Virus record (IMG/VR): IMGVR_UViG_3300010211_000027
Span: 1 to 45,088 of that record
DNA length: 45,088 bases
DNA from: a virus
Direction: 5' to 3' (one strand)
Below are positions 29,851 to 45,088 of this stretch, piece after piece. Both the position numbers and the translations under genes were made by a program. The notes below the pieces were generated by a model. It was not told the DNA's origin and made no database searches. It was given only the letters and a program-made list of their open reading frames with translations. Position 1 is the stretch's first letter; each line of letters opens with the position of its first letter.

Positions 29851-31619
29851 GGCCGCCCCCCAACGTCCCGCGTCGCATGCCGGCGGCGGAGCCCTCGCCC
29901 GCCCTGCCCCGACCGTCGCCGGCGGGATCGCTGGCCATGATCCGGGGCAATCCCATGCGGGACGCCTACCAGCGGCACCAGGCCCAAACCCGCCAGGAAG
30001 ACAACGTCAAGGATCAGCAGTTCCTGCAGGTTCTCAAACTGGCCGCGCAGGGCCAGGGCGACGCCGCGCAGGCCCTGGCAGAGCGGTACCGGATGCCCCT
30101 GACGGACAGCCACAGGGCCATCATTCGCAATGCGCGCGCAGCGGGTTTGATGAAGACCGGCCACGACCTGGGGCTCGACAAGGACCCCGAGGCGTTCCGC
30201 GCCTTCATGCAGGCCGGGGCCCAGAACGGATACGACCCGACCCGGTCGTATTTGCAGGTCATGCAGAACGGCCCGATCCTGAACCCCACGGCGCGGATGT
30301 TCCGGGATCTGGCCCAAGGTGGAGGGGCCCAGGGCGTTGGAACAGGGGCGGCCGGAGGCCCGTCCGTCGGCACCGACACCGTCACGGGGCCAGCGCAGCG
30401 CCCCGCCCTGGAGCGGTCCCCGTTGCCGATCCAGGCCCAGGCGCCGGAGCCGTTGCGCGACACGATCGCGGCGACGGCCCAGCAATACGGGATCGACGCC
30501 GAGGTCTTGACCCGTCTTCTGCAAACGGAAAGCAACTGGGACCCGATGGCCCGCAGCCCGGCGGGGGCGGCCGGCCTGGCCCAGTTCATGCCGGGGACGG
30601 CCCAGCAATACGGCGTCGACGTCACCGACGCGCATTCGTCCATCGACGGCGCCGGGCACTATCTGTCCGACATGACGACGCAGTTCGACGGTAACCCCGT
30701 GCTGGGCGCCATGGCCTACAACTGGGGGCCGGGCAACGTCCAGAAATGGCTGGCGTCCGGGGCCGATCCCGCGCGCGTGCCGGCGGAGACCCGCGCGTAT
30801 GTGCGGGACGTCCTGGGGCAGGACGTCGGCGCCGTCGGGGGCCGGGGGGTGCGGCCCGGGCAAACGGCGCCGGCCGAAGGGGCCCAGTCCCCCCAGGGTG
30901 CGTCGGCGCAAGGTGGCGCGGGCCTGAGCCGGGATATGCTGGTCGCGCTGCAGTATATGGCCCAGACGGACCCTAAAGGCGCCCAGAAGTGGTACCTGGA
31001 TTACCTGGTCAAGGCCGAGGGCATCCATGCCGCGACGGCCGCCATGAAGGAGTACCACCTCGCCCAGCGTCAGGGTTTCCAGGGTAGCTTCCTGGACTTC
31101 GAGGCCGAGCGCGCGGCCTCCCGGCGGTCGGCAGCCCCGCAGATCCGCGAGGGCATCAACCCCGAGACCGGCGACCCCATGTTCGGGCGCATCGATCCCC
31201 GGACCGGGGCGGTCTCGCCCCTGCAGGGGATCACCCCCCGGCCCCGAACCTCGACGGCCCCGCATGCATCCACCCTGGTGAACCAAGCGCAAACTCGCGC
31301 CCTCGCCCGCGCCAAGGCGGACGCGCCGAGGGAAGGCGGAGACGGCCTTTTTGCCGGCACCGCCCCGGACCCCGCCAAGGTCCGGGAGCTATATCAGCAG
31401 TACCTCGCCGAAGAACTCCGGATGCGCGGCATCGATCCCACGGCATACACGGCCGGGGCCGACGCACCACAGTCGACCGCGCCGCCATCGCCCCCACAGG
31501 ACTCGCCCCCGGGGCAGCCGACGGCTCCGGCCCCGCCGAAGGTGGGGGATACGGTCCTTGGCTATCGTTTCCTGGGCGGTGATCCCGCTCAGGAGAGCAG
31601 TTGGGAGTCGGTCGAGTGA
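29847..31619 (+). CDS. Virion protein with lytic transglycosylase domain
   Basis: A 590-residue protein with an SLT-type domain at about residues 205-325. The catalytic glutamate is likely Glu228 in LLQTESNWDP, followed by GAAGLAQFMPGTAQQYGVD and MAYNWGPGNV. This enzyme cleaves peptidoglycan so the ejection channel can cross the cell wall. N- and C-terminal parts are Pro/Ala-rich and probably flexible. GGGGAGGA precedes ATG 29847, which overlaps the previous stop. The end overlaps the GTG start of the giant gene. Confidence 0.85.
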   Translation: MRPPPNVPRRMPAAEPSPALPRPSPAGSLAMIRGNPMRDAYQRHQAQTRQEDNVKDQQFLQVLKLAAQGQGDAAQALAERYRMPLTDSHRAIIRNARAAGLMKTGHDLGLDKDPEAFRAFMQAGAQNGYDPTRSYLQVMQNGPILNPTARMFRDLAQGGGAQGVGTGAAGGPSVGTDTVTGPAQRPALERSPLPIQAQAPEPLRDTIAATAQQYGIDAEVLTRLLQTESNWDPMARSPAGAAGLAQFMPGTAQQYGVDVTDAHSSIDGAGHYLSDMTTQFDGNPVLGAMAYNWGPGNVQKWLASGADPARVPAETRAYVRDVLGQDVGAVGGRGVRPGQTAPAEGAQSPQGASAQGGAGLSRDMLVALQYMAQTDPKGAQKWYLDYLVKAEGIHAATAAMKEYHLAQRQGFQGSFLDFEAERAASRRSAAPQIREGINPETGDPMFGRIDPRTGAVSPLQGITPRPRTSTAPHASTLVNQAQTRALARAKADAPREGGDGLFAGTAPDPAKVRELYQQYLAEELRMRGIDPTAYTAGADAPQSTAPPSPPQDSPPGQPTAPAPPKVGDTVLGYRFLGGDPAQESSWESVE

Positions 31620-34600
31620 AGCCCTGGGAGGTTTACCAGCAGACCGCCATCCCGAATACGCCGGCCCCGCCTCGGACGCCCTGGGAGATCTATGCCGCCG
31701 CGAAACCGGCGGACTCCGACGCGGGGACCTGGTCGCAGGCCGGCAATATCGTCCGGGGTGCCGGAGAGGCCGCAATGGATGTGGCCGGGTGGCTTTTGGA
31801 AAGTGGCGGCGCCATTGCGGAGGACCTCGGCGACGAGATGGAACGCCGCTTCCCACTGGGCACCCTGTCCAAGCCCGGCGTCCCCATGACCGAACAGGAG
31901 ATCGCGGCACCCAACCTGGGCCGGACCCTCCAGGAGATCGGCCGGACGACCGCCGACGTCGATTTCGGCTACGAGGAAAAGTACTCCTGGGATCGCCTGA
32001 AGAACAGCGAGGGCATCCTGGACGCGGCCGGCAACCTGATCGGCTTCGCCACGGAACAAGGGCTGGTCTCGGTTCCTCACATGATCGCCGCGATCACCAA
32101 CCCGGCCGCCTACACGATGGCCCTGGCCGGCGGAATCGGCACGACCCGCGCGGAAAACCAGGGGCGACCGGACGACGTCCACGCCCGGGACGTGGCCGAG
32201 GCCGCGCCCGCCGCCCTGGCCTCCGCGTTGATGGAGCGGTTCGGGGCCCGGGGTGTGCTGGGCCTGGACGACACCGTGAGGCGGGTTGCCGACATCCCGG
32301 GCGCCATGGCCAAGGCCGGCGTCAAAGAGGGGGTCACCGAGTTCGGCCAGGAGCAACTGGAGTATGCCGGCGAGACCGTCGGCACCAAGACGCCCTGGGA
32401 GTTCTGGCAGAGCCTGGAACGCGGCGCCGCCGGGGCCCTGGCCGGCGGGCCGTTCGGCGCCGGGGTTCGCGCCGGGACGGCGGCCGTTCAGTTGGCCGTC
32501 AATCCGGACGCGGACTCCCCCGGAATCGGGGAGCAGCCGGGGGACAACGGCACGGGATCCCCACCGATCCCGGGCCGGAAGCCGGAACCCGGGGGCCGGG
32601 TGACGGTGGTCCTGCCGGGCGAGGACGCCCCGGTGTCCGGCGTGGTGGAAAGCATCGATCGGCGCGGGGCCACCGTGCGCCTGGACGACACCGGGGATCT
32701 GGAGGTGGTGGCGCCCGAGGCCCTGACCCAGACCGACGCCGGCACGCCCGAGGCCCAGCCCGCGCCATCCCCGGCCGGTCTGTCGCCGGAGACTGAGCTT
32801 GACCAGGTCCTGAACTCCGACCGGCCGGTCACGGAGATCATCGCCGAGGCCGATGGGCGCCCGGTCGGTCGCCAGCGGGTGACCCTACCGACCGGGGACA
32901 CCACCGACGCCACCGTGACGCCGCTCGACGACGGCCTCGTACGCATCGAGACGGCGGACGGAGATGTGTTGGTGGTCCCGGACACCGGAAGCGGCATCAC
33001 CTTCGCCGCGCCCGAGGCCATGCCCGCAGCGGAGCCGAATGCCGCCCCTAAGAGCCACGCCGACCCCGACGGACCGGTCACCATCCCCGACGACCTCCAA
33101 CCGGAGATCGATCGCCTCATCGGCGAAGGCCTGGACCCGCTGGATGCCCGGGACGAGGCGATGGAGCGCGCCGCCCTGCGCGACGATACGCCGTTGCCCT
33201 GGGAAGAGGCGTTTCCCGCGACACCACGGCAGGATGCCCAGATCGCCGACGCACCGGAACCGCAACGGGCCGAGGCCATGCGGCGGATCGGCCTGCAGGA
33301 CAGCGCCGCCGAGGTGGATGTCACCCTTGCCGACGGCACCGATATCCGCGCCGAGATCGGCCGCGCCGGTCTGGACGACCAGGGCCGGCCCTGGCTGGAA
33401 CTCCGCCAGGACGACGGCACCGTGTCGGTGGTCAATCCCGGTGTGAATGCCGAGGTCTGGCCGGCAGTGTCGGCGGCCGAGTCGCGTCGTTACGTGGCCA
33501 CACCAGATAATGCGCCTGACTGGGGCGCGATCGACGCCAACGCCGCGCAGGCCATCGGGCGCCAAGCGGCCCCCATTCGCCTCCGGGTCGGAGACAAGAC
33601 GTTCGGACTGGCCCACATCAGGGCGCGTCATGGCGAAGATGCAAAGCGACTGGGATACCAGGACGTCGAACACATGGTCCTGGACATCACGCGGAATTGG
33701 ACGGCCGTCTACCAGGGCAAGGGACGCTCTCTGATCCTGGCGAAAGAAACGCCAGCCCACGGTCACGCTTATGTCCAATTGGAGCCGTCGCCGGACGGAG
33801 ATTTCTACGACGTCAAAACGGCGACCCCGAGCCGAACCGATCAGTTCAGGAGCAAAAAGCCGCTCTGGGAGCGCGCCGGGCCCAGCGCGTCGCCCGCCGT
33901 AACGGACACCGTTCATCCCTCGGTCCAGAGCAAACCTATTGTAGCAGGTCTCGCCTCTCTTTCCTACACGCCCGCCGTCACCGATCGCGCCCGCGTTCTG
34001 CAGCGCGCTTTGAAGTCCCGCCTCCGGGAAATGGGGCTGGGAGACGTCAACGTGGTCATCGCCGACGACATCGGTGGCGGGACCCGTGACGGCTTCTATT
34101 GGAAAAAGCTGATCGCCGTGGCGTTGGACCGCGGGGAAACCGAGGCATTTCATACCCTCAATCACGAGGCGATTCACGCCGCCCGCCGCCTGAACGTGCT
34201 TCGTGGCCGGGAGTGGGCCGCCCTGGACCGGGCGGCCACGTCCGAAGGGTGGATGGATCGCTTCCGGGTGCGGGAGCGCTATCCGGACCTGTCCCCGGAG
34301 CAGCAGACCGAAGAAGCCATTGCCGACGCCTACCGGGCCTGGGTGGCCGGGAAAGGGCCGGAGCCCCGCAATGCCTTTGCCCGCCGCGCCCTGCATCTCC
34401 TGCGCCGGGTGTTCGAGCATATCCGGGCCACCTTCCAGGGGCAGACCCTGACCGCCGATGACGTGTTCCGGCGGGTTCGCGCCGGGGCGTTGCGGGAGCA
34501 GCCGTCCGCCCCCCCAAGGTCATCCGCCGGACGGCCGGCCGAGGGACGCCGCCCGGTCGGTCCCTTCGGCCCCGTTTTCACGGCGTATCGGCACGATGCT

Positions 34601-37600
34601 CGCGGCGCCATCTCCCGCTTGATCCGGGAACAAGACGGCGAGGCTGTCGCCGCCCTTCATCACCCGGAGATTGGGGATATCGATCTGGTATGGGGTGTGG
34701 TGGGGACTGGTGCCAGCGATGGATATGGATTGGCCAAGCTAGTCCGCTTCCACCCCGAAGTTCTCGACGATCTTCAGGGCGCTTTGAGTGCCATGCAGAT
34801 TGTCCAGCGCGGCCCGAACCGAATCCGGTTGGCATCGCCCACCCACAAAGCGGTTGTTCGCCTTGACTGGGACGGACGGTCCAAGACGTGGTTGCTCACG
34901 GCCTTTGAGAAAAACGGGAGTGGTGTCGACACGACGACGGACACTGCCAAACTTGCCGGCGGAGATGACACAGCTCGCTCCACCACCACTCCGGCGACAA
35001 GTATAGCGGAGCATAGCCCCGAGTTCCACCACCCCGAGACCGAACCACCGGCCGAGTCCCGTCGCGCGGCAGACCAGGCCTTGCGGGATGGCCTGGACGG
35101 CCTGGCCGAGCAAGAGCGTCAGCAGCACGGCGACCGGAACACCCCGGAGCCCGCCACCCTGGCCCGGCAGTTGGGCCGCGTGCGATCGGTGATCCTGCAC
35201 CCGCGCATGATCGCCAGCCGGCACCCGACCTTCGTCCCGGTGTATCAGGCGGTCATCGCCCGCCGGCAGTTGCGGGAAAAGATCCTCTCCGAACTGACCG
35301 AGAAGCGGCGCCCCTATGCGGCCATGACGCCCAAGGAAAAGGCCCGCGTCAACGCGGTGCTGGAGATCGGCCGCCTTCACCAGACCGACTATTCCGACAC
35401 GCAGTTGCGCGAAGGCGTCACCACGGCCCTACGCCACCTGTCCGCCGCCAAGCGCGGCACGGTCTACAAACTGACCGACCCGGAGATCCGGGGGTATCGG
35501 GCCTATCGCGGCACCATGAACCATGCCTTGGGGCTGTTTCGGGATCAGATGATCGCGGAATATGCCGAGCGTCTCGGGGTGAACCCGGAGGATGTCCGCG
35601 ACCTTAACCACATCGCCGAACACATGCGGATGGTCGATCCGGACAGCCGGGCCATGGACGAGTGGCGGCGGTTCTACGACACTATTTTGCAGATCGAGAA
35701 TCAGACCCGCGTCGGCTATGTGCCCTTCACCCGATGGGGGCGGATCGGCATCACCATCCGGTCGAAGACGGAAACCGAGCCGGTCCCGGGCTCCACCACC
35801 GAGACCCGGCCCAAGGTGGTGCATTTCGAAAAGATCGACATCGATGGCCTGAACGAGCGGGTGAAACGCCTGATGGTCCGGTTCCAGCGGAACGGCAATC
35901 CGGACGCCCTGCGCAACATCCCCGCCGTGCGAAAGGCGCTGGCCGATCTGCGACGGCGCTATCCGGCGGCCCAATACGACATCGCGGCCCCCATCGAACT
36001 GGTGCCGAAGCAGAACGCCGAGGACATCACCCTGACCGGCATGGATGCCCTGGCCAATGCCTCCGGGCTGATGGACAGCGACTCCTATGACGAGGTCCGC
36101 GACGCCTTCGAGAAGGCATTGCAGGCCCGGGGCTTCCGGCGGCACTTCTTCAATGCCCGCCACATCGCCGGGTACAGCGGCGACCTGGACCGCGCCGGCG
36201 CCGATTACGTGACCGGGATTTCCCGGCACCTGTCGGATCGGGCCTGGAAGCAACCCCTCGACACCGCCCTTGGGCACGTGGACCCGCGCTCCCCTCGGTT
36301 GGTGGCCTATGCCCGCAAGTACCTGGATTACATCGATCAACCCCAGGAGGAATTCCAGACCCTGCGGGCCATGGCCTTCTATTGGCTGCTGTCCGGGGTC
36401 GGGTCCGCCGCCGTCAACCTACTCCAAGTCCCGGGGATATCGGTCTTCTATGCTGCCATGTTCCAGAAAAACCCTGTACAGATCAGCTACATGTTTGCGC
36501 GGGCCTACGCCGAGACCTTGGGAATGGTTTCCCTCAAAGCCGGGTGGGAGGTGATCGACCCCAACAAGGCCCCCCGCGATATGCGTGAGGACTTCAAGCG
36601 CGCCTTCGACGAAGGCGAGATGTGGCCGATCACCACCATGGAAGAGATGGCCCAGGCGCATCGGCGCGACATCTTCGCCGGGATCGCGCGCCGGGTGGGC
36701 TCCGTCAGAATCCCGGGCACCAATACCCAGGTGGATATCGGCACCATCTTCAAGATTCTCGGCCACTTATTCACTCTCGCCGAACGTGTGAACCGGGCGG
36801 CCACCTTCATCGTCGGCCATCGTCTGGGGCAACAGGCCAAGACCTGGGAGGTGGCGGAGCGAATTTATGATGCCAGAAGCCCGCTGGCCCAGGAGGCCCT
36901 GAAGGACCGCAGTCCCTCCGCCTTCGCCGCTTGGCTGATCGAGGAAACCCACTACCGCATGGGTAAGGAGAACCGCCCGACGGTGGCGACGGGACCGGGC
37001 GCGCTGATCCTGCAGTTCCGGGGGTACACAATGCAGACCCTGGAATTGTACGCGCGCCTCGCCACCCGCCACGGGCCGGAAGGCCGCATGGCCCTGGCCG
37101 GCATGATGGGGTGGTTGCTGCTGACCGCCGGGGTTCTGGGACTGCCGTTCTTCGATGACCTCAAGGACATCATTGAAGGCGTCTGGAAGCAGGCCGCCGG
37201 TGTGGATCGGGACTTCGAGACCGAATTCCGCCGGTTCGCGGACGCCGTGACCGGCGTGGACAGCCTGGGGGAGATCATTACCCGCGGCTTCCTGCGGAAG
37301 TCCCCCACAGACGTCAGTCGCCGCATCGGCATGGGCGACATCTTCCCCACGGAAATGCATGACCTGGGCTGGGCCGATCTGGCTGGGCCGGCGATCAGCA
37401 CCATCGTGCAACGGGTGAGCAAGATGGCCGTGGCCGGGACCCGGCCGAACATGGACGAGGCCCTTGCCATCGCCATTCCGGCGGCGTTGCCGGCGGCGTT
37501 CGCCTACCCCATCGAGGGCTTGGTCAGTTACCCCAAGGTGGGTGTCGTCTCCAGCCATGACGGCATGACCCTGATCCCGCCAGAGGACATCACCAACGGC

Positions 37601-38008
37601 GACAAGATCATGAAGGCCCTCGGGTTCACCTCCGCCCGCCTGGCCAGCGAATGGGAACGCCGGCAGGCCATCCGCCGGCAGGAAAGTGCCGTCGATCTGC
37701 TGCGGTCGCGCACGTACATGAAGCTCGCCCTGGCTCTCGTCGACTACGATCGCGCAGATAAGGAGAAAAATGAAGAGGGCGTCCGTCGGGCTGCGGATCG
37801 TGTCCAACGCGTGGCCGACGCGATCGAAATCCACAACAAAGCAGCCGATGCAGCAGGAAGGCCCTGGGAAGAGGTCCATTTGCAGCTACCAACCCTCAAG
37901 CGCAAGGTGGCGGAGCTTCTCCAGGGCCGCGCGCCCTCCCTGCCTCGTCGCCTCGGCGGGGCCCAGGCGGAAACGAACGCGCTTTTCGGCGGGACCCGCG
38001 CCGATTGA
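31616..38008 (+). CDS. Giant polyvalent ejection protein with peptidase and nuclease-like domains
   Basis: A protein of about 2130 residues, the third ejection-type gene. Seen in order: a hydrophobic/amphipathic N-terminal part (1-300); three small beta modules (about 327-372, 409-460, 562-615); a barnase/EndoU/colicin-like nuclease segment (about 640-760, FGLAHIRARHGED); a zincin-like site NHEAIH (about 849-854) with a C-terminal helper region; a second nuclease-like segment (about 985-1100, EIGDIDLVWGVVGT and GYGLAKLVRFHPEV); then a long helical region with membrane-prone stretches (from about 1580). This matches the polyvalent-protein concept, in which phages inject multi-domain proteins with the DNA. 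GTG 31616 follows GGGAG; TTG 31601 is an alternative. All nuclease calls are by pattern. Confidence 0.8.
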   Translation: MKPWEVYQQTAIPNTPAPPRTPWEIYAAAKPADSDAGTWSQAGNIVRGAGEAAMDVAGWLLESGGAIAEDLGDEMERRFPLGTLSKPGVPMTEQEIAAPNLGRTLQEIGRTTADVDFGYEEKYSWDRLKNSEGILDAAGNLIGFATEQGLVSVPHMIAAITNPAAYTMALAGGIGTTRAENQGRPDDVHARDVAEAAPAALASALMERFGARGVLGLDDTVRRVADIPGAMAKAGVKEGVTEFGQEQLEYAGETVGTKTPWEFWQSLERGAAGALAGGPFGAGVRAGTAAVQLAVNPDADSPGIGEQPGDNGTGSPPIPGRKPEPGGRVTVVLPGEDAPVSGVVESIDRRGATVRLDDTGDLEVVAPEALTQTDAGTPEAQPAPSPAGLSPETELDQVLNSDRPVTEIIAEADGRPVGRQRVTLPTGDTTDATVTPLDDGLVRIETADGDVLVVPDTGSGITFAAPEAMPAAEPNAAPKSHADPDGPVTIPDDLQPEIDRLIGEGLDPLDARDEAMERAALRDDTPLPWEEAFPATPRQDAQIADAPEPQRAEAMRRIGLQDSAAEVDVTLADGTDIRAEIGRAGLDDQGRPWLELRQDDGTVSVVNPGVNAEVWPAVSAAESRRYVATPDNAPDWGAIDANAAQAIGRQAAPIRLRVGDKTFGLAHIRARHGEDAKRLGYQDVEHMVLDITRNWTAVYQGKGRSLILAKETPAHGHAYVQLEPSPDGDFYDVKTATPSRTDQFRSKKPLWERAGPSASPAVTDTVHPSVQSKPIVAGLASLSYTPAVTDRARVLQRALKSRLREMGLGDVNVVIADDIGGGTRDGFYWKKLIAVALDRGETEAFHTLNHEAIHAARRLNVLRGREWAALDRAATSEGWMDRFRVRERYPDLSPEQQTEEAIADAYRAWVAGKGPEPRNAFARRALHLLRRVFEHIRATFQGQTLTADDVFRRVRAGALREQPSAPPRSSAGRPAEGRRPVGPFGPVFTAYRHDARGAISRLIREQDGEAVAALHHPEIGDIDLVWGVVGTGASDGYGLAKLVRFHPEVLDDLQGALSAMQIVQRGPNRIRLASPTHKAVVRLDWDGRSKTWLLTAFEKNGSGVDTTTDTAKLAGGDDTARSTTTPATSIAEHSPEFHHPETEPPAESRRAADQALRDGLDGLAEQERQQHGDRNTPEPATLARQLGRVRSVILHPRMIASRHPTFVPVYQAVIARRQLREKILSELTEKRRPYAAMTPKEKARVNAVLEIGRLHQTDYSDTQLREGVTTALRHLSAAKRGTVYKLTDPEIRGYRAYRGTMNHALGLFRDQMIAEYAERLGVNPEDVRDLNHIAEHMRMVDPDSRAMDEWRRFYDTILQIENQTRVGYVPFTRWGRIGITIRSKTETEPVPGSTTETRPKVVHFEKIDIDGLNERVKRLMVRFQRNGNPDALRNIPAVRKALADLRRRYPAAQYDIAAPIELVPKQNAEDITLTGMDALANASGLMDSDSYDEVRDAFEKALQARGFRRHFFNARHIAGYSGDLDRAGADYVTGISRHLSDRAWKQPLDTALGHVDPRSPRLVAYARKYLDYIDQPQEEFQTLRAMAFYWLLSGVGSAAVNLLQVPGISVFYAAMFQKNPVQISYMFARAYAETLGMVSLKAGWEVIDPNKAPRDMREDFKRAFDEGEMWPITTMEEMAQAHRRDIFAGIARRVGSVRIPGTNTQVDIGTIFKILGHLFTLAERVNRAATFIVGHRLGQQAKTWEVAERIYDARSPLAQEALKDRSPSAFAAWLIEETHYRMGKENRPTVATGPGALILQFRGYTMQTLELYARLATRHGPEGRMALAGMMGWLLLTAGVLGLPFFDDLKDIIEGVWKQAAGVDRDFETEFRRFADAVTGVDSLGEIITRGFLRKSPTDVSRRIGMGDIFPTEMHDLGWADLAGPAISTIVQRVSKMAVAGTRPNMDEALAIAIPAALPAAFAYPIEGLVSYPKVGVVSSHDGMTLIPPEDITNGDKIMKALGFTSARLASEWERRQAIRRQESAVDLLRSRTYMKLALALVDYDRADKEKNEEGVRRAADRVQRVADAIEIHNKAADAAGRPWEEVHLQLPTLKRKVAELLQGRAPSLPRRLGGAQAETNALFGGTRAD

Positions 38009-38023
38009 CCCCAAATCCCCCGC

Positions 38024-38039
38024 TGCACCCAACCGGACA
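38024..38039 (+). promoter_or_regulatory. Late element copy 5
   Basis: An exact copy of the element sixteen bases after the giant gene, 43 bases before ATG 38083. It shares long identical flanks with copy 4 on its left (32 bases in total) and with copy 2 on its right (31 bases in total). Confidence 0.75.
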
Positions 38040-38082
38040 CGCGCCACCGTGATCCTTAGGCCGTCAATTGGAGGGATGAGTG

Positions 38083-38283
38083 ATGCGTGTCTATCTGATG
38101 CACTGTCTGGGAAAGATCCTGGGGATTTCGTTCAAGGTCGGCGACGTTCCCTATGGGTCTCTCCAAAACACGACCGAACGATGCGGGCCTACCGAACAGT
38201 CTTGGTCCGGTGAGACTATACCTCGCAATTGTGGATATGATGTCCCTTATTGCAACGGCAAGCCGTTCAAAGGCAATCTTTGA
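38083..38283 (+). CDS. Small hypothetical protein (doubtful)
   Basis: A 66-residue frame with GGAGGG seven bases before ATG 38083 and late element copy 5 upstream. The protein (MRVYLMHCLGKILGISFKVG at the start, several Cys near the end) matches nothing I know. Its end overlaps by 17 bases the end of the minus-strand Cas2-like gene. Two other short frames occupy the same place, so coding status is uncertain. Confidence 0.35.
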   Translation: MRVYLMHCLGKILGISFKVGDVPYGSLQNTTERCGPTEQSWSGETIPRNCGYDVPYCNGKPFKGNL

Positions 38284-38536
38284 TCCACTTCGAAACTTTA
38301 TCTTCGTATCCTATCCAAGCGGCTTCTCCGGTTAGCCTTCCAACGAACAATTTGTCATTATTATCAAGACAAGACTTGAGAAAATCTCTGATTTGCGCCG
38401 CCGTCTGGTCCGCCACGACAATCCACACCGACCGTTGCATATGCCAATGTGTCCCGTAGCTCTTGAGCTTCTTGTGTAGGCATTCATAGTTTTGCCCTTC
38501 GGCACTTAGGTCGTATGCGACCATATAAGTTGCCAT
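38267..38536 (-). CDS. Cas2/VapD-fold small protein ('SinR family')
   Basis: An 89-residue protein with the pattern ATYMVAYDLSAEGQNYECLH, then YGTHWHMQRSVWIVVADQTA and KLFVGRLTGEAAWIGYED. This is the small ferredoxin-fold family often annotated as SinR-like and related in shape to Cas2 and VapD. Asp9 lies at the end of the first strand, where Cas2 has its conserved acidic residue. There is no CRISPR array or cas gene nearby. The gene is low in GC, on the opposite strand, with GGGAGAGG before the ATG and a TTGACT box at 38591-38596, so it is an independent cargo gene. Function unknown; an RNase or nucleic-acid-binding role is possible. Confidence 0.8.
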   Translation of the reverse strand: MATYMVAYDLSAEGQNYECLHKKLKSYGTHWHMQRSVWIVVADQTAAQIRDFLKSCLDNNDKLFVGRLTGEAAWIGYEDKVSKWIKDCL

Positions 38537-38631
38537 GACCCTCTCCCTATATCCTTATGCGGGCGCAAAAATGACGTTTATCGCGTTATGAGTCAATCTG
38601 CGCCCCCGCCCAGGATTCGGGTCTTTTTCGC

Positions 38632-38647
38632 TGCACCCAACCGGACA
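38632..38647 (+). promoter_or_regulatory. Late element copy 6
   Basis: An exact copy of the element 50 bases before the holin-like gene. It lies just beyond the second cargo island and heads the lysis cassette. Confidence 0.75.
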
Positions 38648-38697
38648 CGGCCTATCGTCGCGGCAATGACCACCGGGGCCGGGAGCGGGACGACATC

Positions 38698-38910
38698 ATG
38701 GACAGACTCCGAGACGCGGTCGCCCCTGTGGTCGCCGTACCGGCCGCCGCCCTGGCGCCCCTCGGATGGTGGCTGGACACCATCAACGGCCTGCTCGCCA
38801 TCCTGTCCCTGATCTCCGCGATCATCCTCGCGTGGCTGCAGATCATCCCAAAGGCACAAGCCTTGTTGGCGCAACGCCGGGCGAATCGCAGCAAAGGAGC
38901 GCGCCAATGA
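38698..38910 (+). CDS. Holin-like membrane protein
   Basis: A 70-residue protein with a hydrophobic stretch at about 12-24 and a clear transmembrane helix at about 28-50 (TINGLLAILSLISAIILAWL), ending in a basic tail (AQRRANRSKGARQ). Size, topology and position before the endolysin fit a holin. Its stop overlaps the ATG of the endolysin. No named holin family recognised. Confidence 0.7.
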   Translation: MDRLRDAVAPVVAVPAAALAPLGWWLDTINGLLAILSLISAIILAWLQIIPKAQALLAQRRANRSKGARQ

Positions 38911-39560
38911 CCGACGCCCCCCGCCTCTACCGCCATTGGCGCGACGTCCCCGCCGGGTCCTGGCACTGGCCGCACTTCAGCCCCGCCGAAATCGCCTGTC
39001 GAGGTACCGGCGAGCTTTTGGTGGTGCCCCGGGCCCTGGATGCGCTCGAAGACCTGCGGGCGGCTCTGGGCGGCCATCCGCTCATCCTCAACAGCGCCTA
39101 TCGCAGCGAAACGCACAACCGGGCCGTCGGAGGCGCGAAGAAATCCCAGCACCGCGAGGGCGTGGCCTTTGATATCGCCTGTGGCAACGTTCACCCCACG
39201 GTGCTTCGGGTCGCCGCCATGGCCTGCGGGTTCACAGCCGCCGCCTGGTACCCGAAACAGACCTTCGTGCACATCGACATGGGGCCCGCGCGATCCTGGG
39301 GCCCAGCCTTCCCGGCCCGCCCTGTGGTGGATCGCGAAGAGGCGAACCGCTTCCCGCCGGAAACGACGAAGCCGGCGGCGCTCAAGGTAACGACGGCGGT
39401 CGTCTCCGGGGCCGGGGCTGTGGCCTCCGGATCTGGCGCCGTATTGGGCAACTTCGACGGCGACCTCGCCAAGCTGGCCGTCGTCGCCCTGGTGCTGCTG
39501 GTGGCCGCTGGCCTGTTCGCCGCCTGGCGCCTGGGCTGGCTGACGGAGCGCGGGCGGTGA
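38907..39560 (+). CDS. M15-type peptidase endolysin with C-terminal membrane segment
   Basis: A 217-residue cell-wall peptidase. The zinc-site pattern SQHREGVAFDI (residues 80-90) gives His82 and Asp89, and His122 in TFVHIDMG is the third ligand, as in M15A D-Ala-D-Ala type peptidases. After the catalytic domain (about 1-150) there is an alanine-rich linker and a hydrophobic segment at about 185-212. A C-terminal membrane anchor is unusual for a soluble endolysin and may delay or localise its action. AAGGAG precedes ATG 38907. The spanin gene overlaps its end. Confidence 0.87.
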   Translation: MTDAPRLYRHWRDVPAGSWHWPHFSPAEIACRGTGELLVVPRALDALEDLRAALGGHPLILNSAYRSETHNRAVGGAKKSQHREGVAFDIACGNVHPTVLRVAAMACGFTAAAWYPKQTFVHIDMGPARSWGPAFPARPVVDREEANRFPPETTKPAALKVTTAVVSGAGAVASGSGAVLGNFDGDLAKLAVVALVLLVAAGLFAAWRLGWLTERGR

Positions 39561-39916
39561 CCGCCCTTCTCCTGCGCCTCTGGCCGGCCCTGGCGGTGCT
39601 CGGTGTCCTGGGGATCGCCGCCGCCGGCGCGGCCTGGATCACCGATGCCCTGAATGACCGCGCCGCCCTGGCTCGCGAGGTCCAGGAGCAAGCCGACACC
39701 CTCGCGGCCTATCAACTCGCCCTGGCCGAGACCCAGGCCAACGAAGCGGCCGTTGTGAACGCCCTGTCCCGGGCCCATGCGCGCCTCGCCGCCATCACCG
39801 CCGACCGCGCCGCCACCCTGGAGGACCTTCGTCATGCGACTGCTCCAGACTGCCCTGTGCCTGATGCTGTCCGGGACGCTGTTAACCGGCTGTGGGACGA
39901 CGCCGACGCCGACTAA
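39557..39916 (+). CDS. Rz: Inner-membrane spanin, Rz-like
   Basis: A 119-residue protein starting with GTG at 39557, overlapping the endolysin stop. One transmembrane helix (about 5-28) is followed by a long periplasmic coiled helix (about 33-90). Topology and a nested lipoprotein gene in another frame are the hallmark of Rz/Rz1 spanin pairs, which fuse the two membranes in the last step of lysis. Sequence alone would not identify it; the arrangement does. Confidence 0.85.
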   Translation: MTALLLRLWPALAVLGVLGIAAAGAAWITDALNDRAALAREVQEQADTLAAYQLALAETQANEAAVVNALSRAHARLAAITADRAATLEDLRHATAPDCPVPDAVRDAVNRLWDDADAD

Positions 39917-40097
39917 CCCGCCGCCCCGGACCTGCCCAGTGATCCCAGACGACTTGCTGACCTGCCCGTCGGGTGCCCAGAAGCCCGACCCCATCGACAT
40001 GGTCACGCTCACCATCGCGCTCACCGAGGAACGCGCGGCCGGCGAAGTGTGTCGGGCCCGGATGGATGAGGTGCGGGGGCTGGTGGGGACACCCTGA
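39834..40097 (+). CDS. Rz1: Outer-membrane spanin lipoprotein, Rz1-like
   Basis: An 87-residue lipoprotein starting inside the Rz gene in a different frame, with GGAGG about eight bases before ATG 39834. The signal MRLLQTALCLMLSGTLLTGC ends in a lipobox with Cys20. A proline-rich part follows (PTPTNPPPRTCPVIPDDLL), as in Rz1 proteins, then a helical end. It should bind Rz across the periplasm. A decayed copy lies at 41407-41637. Confidence 0.88.
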   Translation: MRLLQTALCLMLSGTLLTGCGTTPTPTNPPPRTCPVIPDDLLTCPSGAQKPDPIDMVTLTIALTEERAAGEVCRARMDEVRGLVGTP

Positions 40098-40107
40098 GCC
40101 CTGAATC

Positions 40108-40134
40108 GTTTGCGCCTACACTGTAGGCGCAAAC
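40108..40134. other. Perfect 13-base inverted repeat after the lysis genes
   Basis: GTTTGCGCCTACA and its exact complement TGTAGGCGCAAAC are separated by one base. No T-run follows, so it is a poor intrinsic terminator. A palindrome about 90 bases from the attachment site could be a binding site for integrase, an accessory factor or a regulator. A nearby CGCAAAC occurs again at 40140-40146. Confidence 0.6.
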
Positions 40135-40220
40135 AGATACGCAAACCGAGTCCCGGTGGGAAAAATACTGCTTGAACAGTAAGCTAACTTATTGAAACAC
40201 GGCGGTTTTTATACCCCATG

Positions 40221-40271
40221 CCCTCGTTTACACCGAGAGGGTCGGCGGTTCGAGCCCGTCATCGCCCACCA
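40221..40271 (+). other. tRNA-Val(TAC) 3' fragment, probable attR
   Basis: The sequence reads as the anticodon loop TTTACAC, 3' anticodon stem CGAGA, T-arm GGCGGTTCGAGCCCGTC and acceptor end ATCGCCCACCA of a tRNA-Val with anticodon TAC. The 5' half is missing, and the base pair at the outer anticodon stem is broken, so identity starts at about 40223. Many temperate phages integrate in the 3' half of tRNA genes and leave such a fragment at one end. The intact tRNA should lie at the other prophage end, outside this window. Confidence 0.75.
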
Positions 40272-40387
40272 ACGAAAACAAGGACTTAAGCCGCCCCACC
40301 AGCCCGGTCGCTACCTCGGAAATCCCAATAGGTAACATCTTAGGTAACATCCGACAGGGCGGATTTGGGCAGCGAATTGCATCCACG

Positions 40388-40414
40388 AAAAAGCCCCCGG
40401 CCGGAGCCGGGGGC
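40388..40414 (-). terminator. Rho-independent terminator (minus strand)
   Basis: GCCCCCGGC (40393-40401) and GCCGGGGGC (40406-40414) form a nine-pair perfect stem with loop CGGA. Read on the minus strand it is followed by five T. It lies 75 bases beyond the stop of the minus-strand gene at 40489. Confidence 0.85.
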
Positions 40415-40488
40415 AGTAGGTGCGGCGCGATGGCGCGGCGATCACCGAGCCGGCAGCAGCCGAAATAGCGCTGGTAGGTATGCCGCCG

Positions 40489-40920
40489 CTACAGACCCCA
40501 ACCTTCTGGCGGCGTCTGGCAAAGAAAGCGCCACAAATCCGATTTCGAGGATCCCGACACCAGATCGAACCATTTCGTTGGGTCACTGGTGCTCATGCCC
40601 TCTGGTGAGCCGTCCTTGTCCCCCAACTCTCGCATCTTCATGGTCGAGCAGTTGCTCTCGGTCAGCGTGAAGCCGATATCGAACACGCCTTCACGTTTGT
40701 GAAGGGCGCGGATAACGTCGCCGTCCCTTTCGGCCGCAATCAGGTAGTCCTTTCCCTTGTCGCCCGGCATAGAACGCGGAATCTGGATGGGAGAATGGTT
40801 CCGGGCAGCCTCCAATAAGCTTGCCAGAGAATCGTCAGACGCATTCCCAGGGCTTGCGTCAAGCCCGATCGCCCCTATTCCAGAAAGTATGGCAGCGACC
40901 AACACAACGAAGCACCTCAT
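40489..40920 (-). CDS. Small secreted protein, unknown
   Basis: A 143-residue protein with a cleavable signal peptide (MRCFVVLVAAILSGIGAIGL, probable cut after about residue 27). The mature part has DKGKDYLIAAERDGDVIRAL and two cysteines (about 102 and 135). No family recognised. ATG 40920 was chosen because the signal peptide begins there; an ATG at 40950 adds ten residues. A strong terminator follows. It lies between two attachment-site fragments, so it is chromosomal or the remnant of a second element. Confidence 0.7.
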   Translation of the reverse strand: MRCFVVLVAAILSGIGAIGLDASPGNASDDSLASLLEAARNHSPIQIPRSMPGDKGKDYLIAAERDGDVIRALHKREGVFDIGFTLTESNCSTMKMRELGDKDGSPEGMSTSDPTKWFDLVSGSSKSDLWRFLCQTPPEGWGL

Positions 40921-41272
40921 CCTCGCCTCCCTCGTGATGAAGACGAGCATGTTGCTTCAGATGCAACAGTGGCATCTATGGCTCCCCATCTGCATCTCCG
41001 CTACGGGGACTCGGGTGTAACCCGAAGGTGCCAGTGTAATGCAGGTTCCCCGGCCCGGACGCGAAGGTATGGCCATAACACCCACGTCAAGCATATCCGC
41101 GCTGTGTATCATCGTTGGACACGTAGCTTAAATTCTTCTGATGACAGTACCCGAAATAAGAATACGAAAAACACCGCCCTCTTTCTCGGGCGTAACATGC
41201 TCTCTATTCTCAAGAATGTAGTCAATGGAACCGGGCTTGGGATCAGGTCGCATGGCAGGCGGAGCACGGGCG
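40921..41272. other. Stretch without recognisable gene
   Basis: This stretch holds the presumed promoter of the minus-strand secreted-protein gene and a small hairpin GTTGC...GCAAC near 40952. From about 41100 an AT-rich piece leads into the decayed spanin copy. Homology to the end of the endolysin gene seems to begin near 41255 (GGAGCACGGGCGATGA against GGAGCGCGGGCGGTGA). No convincing coding frame was seen. Confidence 0.5.
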
Positions 41273-41637
41273 ATGACCGCCCTTCTCCTGCGCTTCTGGC
41301 CGGCCCTGGCCGTGCTCGGCGTCCTTGGCGCCGTCGCGGCCGACCGCGCCGCCATCCTGGAGGATCTGCGCCATGCCGAGGCCCCCGACTGCCCTGTCTG
41401 TGCCTGATGCTGTCCGGGACGCTGTTGAGCGGCTGTGGGGCGACGCCGGCGCCGACTAACCCGCCGCCCCGGACCTGTCCAGTCATCCCCGACGACTTGC
41501 TGACCTGCCCGCCGGGCGCATCCAAGCCCGCCCCCATCGACATGGTCACGCTGACCATCGCCCTGACCGAGGAACGCACGGCCGGCGAGGTCTGCCGGGC
41601 GCGGATGGATGAGGTGCGGGGGCTGGTGGGTGAGTAA
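41273..41637 (+). pseudogene. Decayed second Rz/Rz1 spanin cassette
   Basis: The stretch is closely similar to 39557-40097. The Rz copy begins MTALLLRFWPALAVLGVLG but has lost about 180 bases of its coiled region and stops early at 41407. The Rz1 copy has a four-base insertion (TCTG at about 41397-41400) that throws the lipoprotein signal out of frame; only a short start MLSGTLLSGCG remains at 41407. After it the text PTNPPPRTCPVIPDDLLTCP is preserved to 41637. Neither protein should work. This is best seen as the remnant of a related prophage. Confidence 0.85.
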
Positions 41638-41751
41638 AGCGAAGAATCCCGCCAGAACCTGTTCTACAAACATCCGCTAACCCATTGAGTTTCTCGGCGC
41701 GTTTTACACGTCAGCACAGTCTAAGCCGTTGAAAACGAACGCTAAAAACCT

Positions 41752-41798
41752 GACTGAAAATCCCCGTGTCGGCAGTTCGAATCTGTCCCCGGGCGCCA
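41752..41798 (+). other. tRNA-Phe-like 3' fragment, probable second att site
   Basis: Anticodon loop CTGAAAA (anticodon GAA), 3' stem TCCCC, variable GTGTC, T-arm GGCAGTTCGAATCTGTC and acceptor CCCGGGC with GCCA are seen. The 5' half is absent and the outer anticodon stem cannot pair. The base before CCA is G, whereas tRNA-Phe usually has A, so identity as Phe is not fully certain. As with the tRNA-Val fragment it lies about 110 bases after an Rz1 end, which supports an attachment site of a second, related element. Confidence 0.65.
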
Positions 41799-41806
41799 TT
41801 TCCAAC

Positions 41807-41833
41807 CCCCTGAAAACATTGCGTTTTCAGGGG
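41807..41833 (+). terminator. Hairpin after the tRNA-like fragment
   Basis: CCCCTGAAAAC (41807-41817) and GTTTTCAGGGG (41823-41833) form a perfect eleven-pair stem with loop ATTGC. It probably was the terminator of the original host tRNA gene. Only TGTTCTCGTT follows, so the T-run is weak. Confidence 0.65.
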
Positions 41834-42274
41834 TGTTCTCGTTGCGCTCCAGGGGCCGTTTGGGGGGAGGACGCAGACGCCCGCCGTGGTCCCCGGATGC
41901 ATCCAACCGTGAAACGGAAAGCGAAGACGATCGGTCCCACCGCGCGGCCACCAAAAAAAGACGTTTTCCAATATTGAAATCTCTAATTTGTTGAGCGTTC
42001 CTCCCGATCCGGACAGACAGCAACTTATAATTCACACATGATACAGAGATATTCGCCATAACGTTAAGGTTTTCATTCGGGCTTAAATGATCAAAATCGT
42101 AGCAAAATTCGATCTTATCTCGTAACATTCCAATGAATGCGTCTAAGACTTGCCATGGGAATCAGGAGTTTTATTCCTGTCTCCATGTTCCAATTTTTGA
42201 TTTCAAAGACAACATGGGGCCCTGAAGGGTCCCATGACCGACTGGCATCCTCATTCTCGTCATGGAGTTGGCCA
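41834..42274. other. Intergenic stretch before the NHL gene
   Basis: A GC-rich part up to about 41960 is followed by an AT-rich part (41970-42140) that should hold the promoter of the NHL gene. Short frames overlapping the tRNA fragment translate to strings well known as false annotations of tRNA loci. No real gene seen. Confidence 0.5.
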
Positions 42275-43225
42275 ATGACCCCGAATGCCATCTTGTCCGC
42301 CGTCGCCTCCGCCCTCGCCACCCTAGTCGTCGCGTCGACCACCCATGCCGCCGACATCTCGATCGAACCCGTCATGAGCTTCGGCTCCGAGGGAAACGAC
42401 GAGGGGCAATTCGGTTATGTCGAGGATTTCGCATTCACGGCGGACGGTCATCTGTTGGTCACCGACGCCTCGCACGCCTACGTTCAGGTCTTCGACCAAA
42501 CCACCGGCGCGTATATCACCCGCTTCGGCGGACACGGCGATTTCGACGAGCACCTGGAAAAGCCGGAAGGCATCGCCGTCGCGCCCAACGGCGACATCTA
42601 TGTTGCCGATTATCAAAGCGGATACATAAAGGTCTATTCTCCTGAATACGAGTGGCTGAGAACCTTCAGCGGCTACGGCTCGGAGCCGGGACAGACCATC
42701 AAGAGCGAGTTCATGGACATCCATGAGGGACGCCTCTATGTCCCCGAGGCCGGCAACCACCGTATCAGCGTTTTTGACCTAGACGGGACCTTTCTCTTCG
42801 CCTTCGGCGAGCACGGCACGGGTGACGGTCAAATCGACAATCCGGAATCCGCGAAATTCAACAGTGCCGGCGCTCTTTATGTAGCCGATCTGAAAAACGA
42901 CCGCGTCGTCGTCTACGATGCCGAGGGCACCGTACAGTTTATCTTTGGAGAAACCGGCTCGGAACCGGGCCAATTGTCCCGGCCGGCCGGCATCTCCTTT
43001 GATGCGGCCGACAATGTCTATGTCACCGAGATCGGCAATGATCGGGTCTCGGTGTTCACCAGCGACGGCACGTTCCTGACCTCATGGGGTAGCAAGGGCG
43101 AGGCCGAAGGCCAGTTCGGCAACCTCCACGGCATCATCCTCAATCCCGAGACCGGCCGGATCTACGTCGCCGACACGGCCAACAACCGCGTGCAGGTCTT
43201 CCGCACATCCGTGACGGCCAACTGA
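42275..43225 (+). CDS. Secreted NHL-repeat beta-propeller protein
   Basis: A 316-residue protein with a signal peptide ending THA-ADIS (cut after about residue 25). About six NHL repeats follow, each with the pattern (G)I-x-(hydrophobic)-x-G-x-(I/L)YV-(A/T)D-x-xN-x-R-(I/V)-x-V(F/Y), for example NVYVTEIGNDRVSVFTSDGT and RIYVADTANNRVQVF at the end. A closed six-blade propeller in the periplasm is expected, usually for binding proteins or sugars. ATG 42275 has GGAG eight bases upstream; frames starting at 42137 lie in non-coding sequence. It is host DNA beyond the att sites. Confidence 0.85.
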   Translation: MTPNAILSAVASALATLVVASTTHAADISIEPVMSFGSEGNDEGQFGYVEDFAFTADGHLLVTDASHAYVQVFDQTTGAYITRFGGHGDFDEHLEKPEGIAVAPNGDIYVADYQSGYIKVYSPEYEWLRTFSGYGSEPGQTIKSEFMDIHEGRLYVPEAGNHRISVFDLDGTFLFAFGEHGTGDGQIDNPESAKFNSAGALYVADLKNDRVVVYDAEGTVQFIFGETGSEPGQLSRPAGISFDAADNVYVTEIGNDRVSVFTSDGTFLTSWGSKGEAEGQFGNLHGIILNPETGRIYVADTANNRVQVFRTSVTAN

Positions 43226-43316
43226 GACCCGGTCATGGCGTCCATCGCCGCAAAGACCCACGGACGCACGGCGGATCAGCGGACCTCGGACCCGCGCGCG
43301 GCCCAAGGAGAGCGCC

Positions 43317-45088
43317 ATGTCGAACCGGAACCGGGGGCACGGGTCCAGGCCGCGCCTTGGCCTGAGGGGAAAACTCCTCTCCGGCTTTCTGTCCCTCATG
43401 GTTCTGGTGGTGCTGGCCTGCGGCGCCAGCATCGTCCTGACCCATTCCATCTCCAACAGGGTCGACGTCGTCTCCGAGGAAAGCCAACCGATGCTGCTCG
43501 GCGCGCAGGCGCTGGTGGCGTCGAACAAGGACGTCGAACTTATGATCCGCGAGGCGCTCGCGCAGACCGATCCGAGCGAGCTTGACCGGATCGGGAGTCG
43601 GCTGGAATCCCTTCAGGCCGACGCGAAAGAGCGGCTCAGGATTTTGGCCGCCGAGTCCGAGCGGACCGACGTGGCCGGGTCGGTCGCTCGTCTTGTCGAC
43701 CTGCATGCGCAATATGGGACGCAGACGGAAAAGGCCATCGCCATGCAGGCGACGCTGCTGGACACACAGCGCCGGGTGGAGGAATTGACGCGCCAATTCC
43801 GCGACGTCGCGGCCGGCTTGAACGACACCCTGTCGGACCTCGCCAAATTGGCGGAATCGCTAATGGGACGGGACGAGGACCAGTCACGGACGATGGTGCA
43901 ATCCGGCAATGCATCCGTGGATAGCCTGTCGGACGTGATTGGGACTGTCTTCCACTTCTCGTATCCGATCCTTCAGAACAGCTACAAGCTCATGAACTTC
44001 CTGACGGAGCTCGACCATATTGTCTCCGTTTACGAGACGGAGCCGACTCCCGACGGCCTCCCCAAGATCGAAAAAAACTTTGCCCGCTATGCGCGGGCCG
44101 CCACGTCCCGGTTAGGACGGCTGCGATCCGCCCTCGAGGAGGCGGGCGAGGAAACCGACATGGCCCGCGTCGGCGGCGCCTTCGACGAGCTGAACCGATT
44201 GGCGACTGGCGACGACGGCATGTTCGCCCTTCATCGCAAGGCCCTAGCGGCGCAAACCGAGGCGTTCTCGGCCCTGTCCTCCCTTCAAGCCATCAGCGCC
44301 GAGTATCAGAAGGCCCTCGATGGGCTCGCGAGCCGCGCCAAGGACCTTCAAATTAGCGCCACACGGGCCATCGGCGAGACCGTAACAAGCGCCACGGTGG
44401 CGATGACCGTCTTCGCCGCCGTGAGTCTGGTCCTGGCAGTGGTGTTGGGCCTGGTGTTCGGCCGCCTTGTCGCCGGTCCTGTCATCACCATAACCAGCGT
44501 CATGCGCCGCATGGCCGACGGCGCCCTCGATATCGAGGTCCCGGGCACCGAGCGTCGGGATGAAATTGGCGCCATGGCGGCGGCGCTGGAGGTCTTCAAG
44601 GAAAATAGCATCCGCATGCATACGCTGCAGTCAGATCAGACCACTCAAGCCCGCCGAAACGAGCGCCGCATGAGAACCGAAATGATGGCCCTGAACAACG
44701 CACTGGACGAGGAGGTTCGGGCGGCGGCCGACGCCGTGCACCAGCAGGCCAATGTCATGCAGGGAGCGGCGGGGGAGATGTCCTCCGCCGTGGACCACAC
44801 CGAGCAGCGCTCCCGGGCGGCCGACGGCGCGTCCCGGAACGCCGCGAGCAATGTCGAAGCGGTGGCCGCCGCCGGTGAACGATTGGCCAGTTCAATCGGC
44901 GAGATCAATCGTCAGGTCTCAGGGGCGACCGACATCGCCCATCGCGCCTCCCGGCAAGCGGAGACAACCAATCATCAGATTCAGGGATTGGCCAAGGCCG
45001 CCCATCAGGTCGGGGAAGTGGTCAATCTGATCCAAGACATCGCCAAGCAGACCAATCTGTTGGCCTTGAACGCCACGATCGAGGCGGC
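43317..45088 (+). CDS. Methyl-accepting chemotaxis protein (partial)
   Basis: At least 590 residues, cut by the window edge. The first transmembrane helix lies at about 20-43, then an all-helical periplasmic sensor of about 310 residues, then a second helix (about 357-383) and a HAMP domain (GPVITITSVMRRMADGALDI, about 386-440). The signalling domain ends the window just at the conserved tip (IAKQTNLLALNATIEA). It senses an unknown ligand and signals to CheA/CheW. AAGGAG lies six bases before ATG 43317. Confidence 0.93.
   Translation, partial: MSNRNRGHGSRPRLGLRGKLLSGFLSLMVLVVLACGASIVLTHSISNRVDVVSEESQPMLLGAQALVASNKDVELMIREALAQTDPSELDRIGSRLESLQADAKERLRILAAESERTDVAGSVARLVDLHAQYGTQTEKAIAMQATLLDTQRRVEELTRQFRDVAAGLNDTLSDLAKLAESLMGRDEDQSRTMVQSGNASVDSLSDVIGTVFHFSYPILQNSYKLMNFLTELDHIVSVYETEPTPDGLPKIEKNFARYARAATSRLGRLRSALEEAGEETDMARVGGAFDELNRLATGDDGMFALHRKALAAQTEAFSALSSLQAISAEYQKALDGLASRAKDLQISATRAIGETVTSATVAMTVFAAVSLVLAVVLGLVFGRLVAGPVITITSVMRRMADGALDIEVPGTERRDEIGAMAAALEVFKENSIRMHTLQSDQTTQARRNERRMRTEMMALNNALDEEVRAAADAVHQQANVMQGAAGEMSSAVDHTEQRSRAADGASRNAASNVEAVAAAGERLASSIGEINRQVSGATDIAHRASRQAETTNHQIQGLAKAAHQVGEVVNLIQDIAKQTNLLALNATIEA

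Follow-up and report, generated by a model that had tools for sequence, protein, structure and literature searches.

A prophage right border with the 3' parts of two different tRNA genes: a possible composite of related prophages

How might a single prophage border come to carry the 3' parts of two different tRNA genes, each a short distance downstream of spanin-like coding sequence? This question is raised by a virus record of 45,088 bases, the whole of which was analysed and is called the window here. The window is occupied by a P22-like phage whose genes can be assigned to replication (a DnaB helicase and a replication-initiator-like protein with an HNH domain), to packaging and head formation (small and large terminase, a P22-type portal, a major head protein and a connector) and, at the right end, to lysis (an M15 endolysin, Rz and Rz1). 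Because the record ends on the left within the phage, it lacks the left attachment site. Searches of the window found no tyrosine integrase and no resolvase-type recombinase, ARAGORN found no intact tRNA in it, and an Rfam search of positions 38000-45088 returned no match.

Two other features of the phage can be mentioned in their own right. Between the replication and packaging genes, overlapping genes for an AAA ATPase and a subtilase (5769-9220) match the PADLOC models IetA (8e-79) and IetS (3e-44), and probably constitute a prophage-borne IetAS anti-phage defence system. Closer to the right end, positions 31601-38008 form an open frame of 2135 aa in which a PBECR1 nuclease-like domain was recognised, and the corresponding place in the relative called G001 below is taken up by a 2901-aa reading frame.

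Two tRNA scars and their flanks

The preliminary description of this locus reported tandem 3' fragments of a tRNA-Val and a tRNA-Phe-like gene. Both fragments are real and lie far beyond chance, as judged from blastn, ARAGORN and base-by-base comparison. The Val piece (40223..40271, plus strand) comprises nt 28-76 of tRNA-Val(TAC) and is identical at 47 of 49 positions to the intact tRNA-Val(tac) used for comparison, with agreement at chance level upstream. In blastn it matches annotated tRNA-Val genes of phages as well as plasmid tRNA-Val loci, with E values down to 2e-13. The Phe piece (41752..41798, plus strand) comprises nt 30-76 of tRNA-Phe(GAA), agrees with the intact Azospirillum tRNA-Phe(gaa) at 42 of 47 positions and at chance level upstream, and matches Azospirillum loci in blastn (1e-9). 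The intact counterparts of the two pieces are called tRNA-Val(tac) and tRNA-Phe(gaa) by ARAGORN, and four short probes taken from the pieces each occur once in the window. Sites used by tyrosine integrases usually show a break in the anticodon arm at the tRNA 3' end. Both pieces are tRNA 3' parts at the end of an element, broken in that arm, and their identification as tRNA-integration scars of the tyrosine-integrase type is supported.

The tandem arrangement originally proposed stands insofar as both pieces are integration scars, but the two are not equivalent: they differ in kind, the Val piece being internal and the Phe piece standing at the border. Directly 3' of the Phe piece is an intrinsic-terminator-like hairpin (41807..41833, plus strand; z -4.0) that resembles the end of a host tRNA gene. 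Right of 41,800 there is a gene with NHL repeats that looks like host DNA, and that found only distant NHL proteins (28-41% identity) when compared with genome contigs. The left arm of the Phe site has two IHF-like sites (41678-41690 and 41722-41734, both on the minus strand), identified with an IHF consensus, and to the right of the piece there is no repeat pair and no IHF-like site before 42065. Because a terminator and then non-phage DNA follow directly, and att features are present on the left only, the Phe piece is the outer prophage border (attR).

The Val piece, in contrast, has att-type features on both sides. One IHF-like site lies in its left arm (40185..40197, minus strand, one mismatch to the consensus) and another in its right arm (40276..40288, plus strand). 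Just after Rz1 there is a perfect 13-bp inverted repeat with 1 base between its arms (40108..40134; fold z -5.6), in which no U run was seen, and after the inverted repeat CGCAAAC is present at 40128 and 40140, a spacing of 12 bp. Together these are candidate left-arm (P) integrase sites of the prophage that ends here, designated A, or alternatively a late terminator lacking a U run, and CGCAAAC may not be an arm site. The right arm holds the direct repeat TAGGTAACATC (40329..40351, plus strand, 12-bp spacing). Based on its likeness to integrase-side repeats, this is a candidate for P' (right-arm) integrase sites that would belong to another element, B.

When motifs were counted over 120-150 bp on each side of the Val core, the left side had three copies of CGCAAAC (either strand) and zero of TAGGTAACAT, and the right side had two of TAGGTAACAT and zero of CGCAAAC. 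Given the IHF-like sites on both sides and the repeat pairs that are unlike left and right, the Val piece is an internal site. Arms that are unlike are what the junction of two elements should show, and the Val core would then be a hybrid attachment site, although a single phage with unlike arms is possible. The yardstick for this asymmetry consists of two single-integrase comparators and one tandem comparator, with motifs chosen by eye. Exact patterns for the Val core plus its flank and for the Phe core each had 0 matches in viral contigs, and a comparison of the right arm of Val with plasmids gave nothing convincing.

Some care must be taken with these short motifs, all of which (the IHF consensus with one mismatch, CGCAAAC, GCGCCCAG and TTCCGC) were picked after the sequences had been viewed. 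With the IHF consensus and one mismatch allowed, the window has 12 IHF-like sites where 6.6 are expected. Four of the 12 adjoin the two cores (40185, 40276, 41678 and 41722), compared to a mean expectation of 0.18 beside the cores, and a count of four was reached in 0 of 2000 local shuffles. The IHF-like and arm-type sites beside the cores are predicted att features. The preliminary description also listed motifs shared, in the same order, by the two spacers between Rz1 and fragment. As an alignment this resemblance is marginal (52 of 1000 shuffles score as high), but the CTAAC...ATTGA part of it coincides with the clustered IHF-like sites. Repeats with 12-bp spacing were considered as a mark of integrase sites and rejected: repeats spaced by 10-14 bp number 11 in the window, compared to 1.6 in shuffles, 10 of these 11 lie elsewhere in the window, and a spaced repeat was present in only 1 of 14 integrase loci. 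The argument from TAGGTAACATC is therefore confined to its resemblance in sequence to integrase-side repeats.

Two spanin copies and the interval between the scars

The M15-family endolysin of the prophage (38907..39560, plus strand; Pfam PF08291, 3.6e-21; PHROG peptidase/endolysin) is followed by an Rz i-spanin of 119 aa (39557..39916, plus strand; PHROG 214 Rz-like spanin, 1e-4) and by an Rz1 o-spanin lipoprotein of 87 aa that overlaps Rz (39834..40097, plus strand; PHROG 456, 1.9e-5; Pfam LysC/Rz1, 1.6e-4, which is below the curated cut-off). This first copy is an intact two-component spanin set, with Rz and an overlapping Rz1 lipoprotein after the endolysin, and the proposal that each tRNA fragment follows a spanin cassette holds for it. 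The second copy (41253..41637, plus strand), which would represent the right end of a further prophage, C, is damaged and partial rather than an equal of the first, and was not counted as a spanin set. Its Rz frame begins at 41273 and, with the middle part missing, stops after only 44 aa. In its Rz1, a 4-base difference parts the frame from the original start, and the frame continues from an internal ATG at 41407 to 41637. The distances from Rz1 stop to tRNA fragment are ~125 and ~114 bases, close to the 124 and 115 first reported.

The DNA of the two spanin copies is 86-87% identical, and the pattern of the differences provides a useful hint regarding their history. Over 77 Rz1 codons there are 16 silent changes in 64.5 sites (pS 0.248) and 13 amino-acid-changing ones in 166.5 (pN 0.078), with 17 of the 29 differences at third positions; this comparison counts in the first ~50 bases, which overlap Rz in another frame, and its last codon is a stop in copy 2. 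Since their split, selection has probably acted on both Rz1 lines most of the time. Divergence biased toward silent sites in this way suggests that each copy evolved in a functional phage of its own before the two were united. Sequence comparison thus supports a derivation of the two right ends from related phages, and the degree of identity, taken with the silent-site bias, fits the earlier suggestion that phages with a common right end had different tRNA targets. Rz1 as a query found 0 relatives in viral contigs.

The interval between the Val piece and the second spanin copy (40272-41252) has one gene only, on the minus strand. This cargo-like gene (40489..40950) starts with what resembles a signal peptide, is served by a terminator of its own (40414-40393, minus strand) and sits where an integrase would be expected. 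Family searches assigned it to no known family. Its relatives are hypothetical proteins on five plasmids, four from Acinetobacter and one from Neptuniibacter, the best with 57% identity over 89 aa, and it had 0 relatives when used as a query in viral contigs. Most of these relatives are on small Acinetobacter plasmids, and mobilization genes adjoin in the one such region inspected. No integrase remnant was found between the scars, with nothing in the 1-kb interval below E 0.28 in comparisons with integrase-bearing reading frames, and the same reading frames gave only chance-level matches at both window ends. The interval might be the leftover of an element that had entered tRNA-Val.

Comparator loci and known systems

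Relatives of the phage were sought with the large terminase, TerL. The search matched 315 stretches to the pattern, 314 of them relatives, from which 80 were kept; of these, 50 were examined for an integrase and for the endolysin. An integrase was present in 14 of the 50 and an endolysin relative in 1, and an endolysin alignment search yielded only that same phage, G001, and one relative at 40%. A tRNA 3' pattern matched in 3 of 15 records (the window and the 14 with an integrase), which is an undercount because the pattern misses the window's own Phe piece.

Viral contigs were also scanned with GGTAACATNNTAGGTAACAT, which was found in 11 records representing six distinct contexts. An integrase adjoins the repeat in two of the six contexts (2 of the 11 records), designated L128 and L129, and the other four have none in the record. 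The repeat pair of L128 stands directly after the integrase gene. In L129 (1794-1977 of record G060) a core is flanked left and right by the same repeat pair, an integrase follows, and the core appears to be the end of a tRNA-Ser gene, which would make this locus a textbook-like attP. In both single-integrase comparators that have two arms, the repeats are equal on the two sides (two and two in L099, two and two in L129). When left arms A and B were compared with the left arm of L129, 15 and 58 of 1000 shuffles, respectively, scored as high; both likenesses were set aside, and for arm A the best local match falls outside the motif in question.

The tandem comparator is G027 (IMGVR_UViG_641522607_000001), whose TerL is related at 59%. 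It has an intact tRNA-Leu(caa) at 53989-54073, then 41 kb with a phage, then an identical 57-base copy of the tRNA 3' part, and directly after that copy the genes of another element, namely a tyrosine integrase followed by a type I restriction-modification set. Of the two sides of this copy, the far one has GGTACAG two times and the near one lacks it. The separation of TTCCGC is imperfect, with two on the near side, five beside the intact tRNA and one on the far, or "wrong," side. We read G027 as a P22-like prophage and a restriction-modification element in tandem integration, with a hybrid site between them. It resembles the present locus in the succession of prophage, tRNA 3' copy and next element with its own arm repeats; it differs in that one tRNA gene is involved, both scars are identical and the late genes are opposite in orientation to the scar.

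The closest relative found is G001 (TerL 70%, endolysin ~76%). A 15-base repeat, GTTGTTCACGAAGTG, is present at both ends of its record and is not recognisably tRNA; an IHF-like site lies near it, and the integrase is on the other side. Such ends might mean that the phage is circular or that the cut was made precisely at the att sites. G001 appears to use another core, with CACTTCGTGAACAAC at the two ends of the record, so the group seems to be variable in its integration targets. Nearly the same Val core as in the window is found beside a site-specific integrase in MesoLjLa5, a Mesorhizobium plasmid, at the end of MT836451, a faecal phage contig whose integrase gene begins at base 125, and in a second faecal contig, MT835592, whose DNA after the core no longer looks like phage to us. 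MesoLjLa5 and MT836451 share with the window this near-identical core, which the C-terminus of the integrase faces, but they have an integrase present and a single scar.

Certain published systems offer parallels. Mycobacterium abscessus T36 carries tandem prophages with a shared hybrid attR/attL junction (PMC9934374), and like the present locus it is described with an internal hybrid att core between two prophages and an outer border at a tRNA gene. In that account, however, both prophages are whole and have related cores at one tRNA-Thr, whereas here there are downstream remnants and two different tRNA cores. The composite genomic island CGI48 of Shewanella putrefaciens lies in tRNA-Trp and carries GI21 (PMC8978831). 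It likewise joins two elements of different integration specificity in one composite, but is described as nested whole islands able to excise, with no phage border. In Sinorhizobium meliloti, phage-related sequences that occupy tRNA genes have att cores of 46-49 bp at a tRNA 3' end (PMC11476347), similar in length to the 47-49 nt scars here, but those discussed are single scars at Lys, Asn and Thr genes. No description of two different tRNA cores in one phage border was recognised in the open-licence literature searched.

Origin of the border

The explanation to which we assign the highest probability, at roughly 0.48 and thus tentatively, is that related prophages aimed at different tRNA genes built this border up as a composite, first by integrating in tandem and afterwards through deletion or recombination. 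Mobile DNA of three origins, A, B and C, would then meet at one right border. The P22-like prophage A would end with its endolysin-Rz-Rz1 genes, its left integrase arm and the tRNA-Val core, the last being an internal hybrid site whose right arm belongs to element B. The remainder of B, about 1 kb with integrase-arm repeats and one cargo gene, would be joined at ~41250 to the worn right end of the related phage C. Phage C would have integrated in tRNA-Phe, leaving the Phe piece as the outer border and then the host terminator.

The order of events can be envisioned from the way such elements would integrate. A tyrosine integrase would recombine in the anticodon arm; the incoming phage would bring a 3' part of the tRNA gene with it, and the previous one would persist as a scar at the opposite end of the element. 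Were another element to enter the rebuilt tRNA gene afterwards, a scar would lie between the two elements, and prophage A might have entered tRNA-Val in front of a resident B, or the reverse. A simple tandem array is insufficient: the window has a single Val scar and its outer border is Phe, rather than a repetition of the same tRNA core, and a second event is therefore needed. This might have been a deletion or recombination, perhaps via the shared lysis region, that joined the Val pile-up to the Phe prophage. Speaking against such a composite, the window has no trace of the integrase of B or of its right-hand Val scar, and the joining deletion could remove the intact tRNA-Phe, a loss that would be acceptable to the host only if it had a further copy.

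In the main rival reading, a former attP-Val phage might have gained a right-end module (Rz/Rz1, attP-Phe and integrase-Phe) from a relative and now reside in tRNA-Phe with a relic attP-Val inside. In a variant of this scenario, a whole phage would be inserted by homologous recombination at the lysis genes, and a subsequent deletion would yield the same layout. A change of target of this type is possible but on the unlikely side. It would account for the att features that flank Val on both sides, as in a whole attP, and for the location of the worn spanin copy, which is where recombination in the lysis region would leave it; also, the apparent use of yet another core by G001 suggests that targets vary in the group. 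However, the arm repeats are unlike on the two sides of Val, no integrase remnant was found beside it, and the searches made found no free phage with such a layout. Rather unlikely, too, is the idea that a single temperate phage has been caught in the middle of a change of target, holding two specificities in one genome, with a relic but structurally whole attP for tRNA-Val and a captured second right end that directs integration into tRNA-Phe. Between the two arrangements that the preliminary description had brought together, side-by-side or nested prophages with a deletion explain the data at least as well as a switch of integrase specificity, and have a parallel in G027. Both the composite and the switch require recombination among related phages with different tRNA targets.

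An assembly artefact, in which sequence from two related prophages or strains was merged in silico within the lysis region, is improbable. In its favour, this is a virus contig, and its junction near 41250 falls where the lysis-gene homology begins. Nevertheless, the copies at 86-87% identity are too different for simple repeat collapse, and the stretch from one scar to the other has a gene and a terminator of its own. More improbable still is a tandem duplication of the right end within one phage and decay of the outer copy. The copies do have the same order and orientation and a similar spacing to the scar, but they sit at two different tRNA genes, and silent-site-biased divergence of Rz1 is unexpected for a freshly freed spare copy; duplication in place is disfavoured on both counts. 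That the pieces arose by chance, or from the breakage of a host tRNA cluster with no link to integration, is hardly credible, this reading having in its favour only that both are tRNA pieces, and being contradicted by the breaks of both in the anticodon arm, their position after phage lysis genes and the att-type features around them.

Pile-ups of prophages that target tRNA genes are already known, and the present border is a tidy and instructive example of an ordinary kind. Related phages often differ in integration target, and the intermediate steps are rarely seen. Here, two tRNA cores, two related right ends and one worn copy are packed into 1.6 kb, and the border records either the erosion of tandem prophages or the capture of an integration module.
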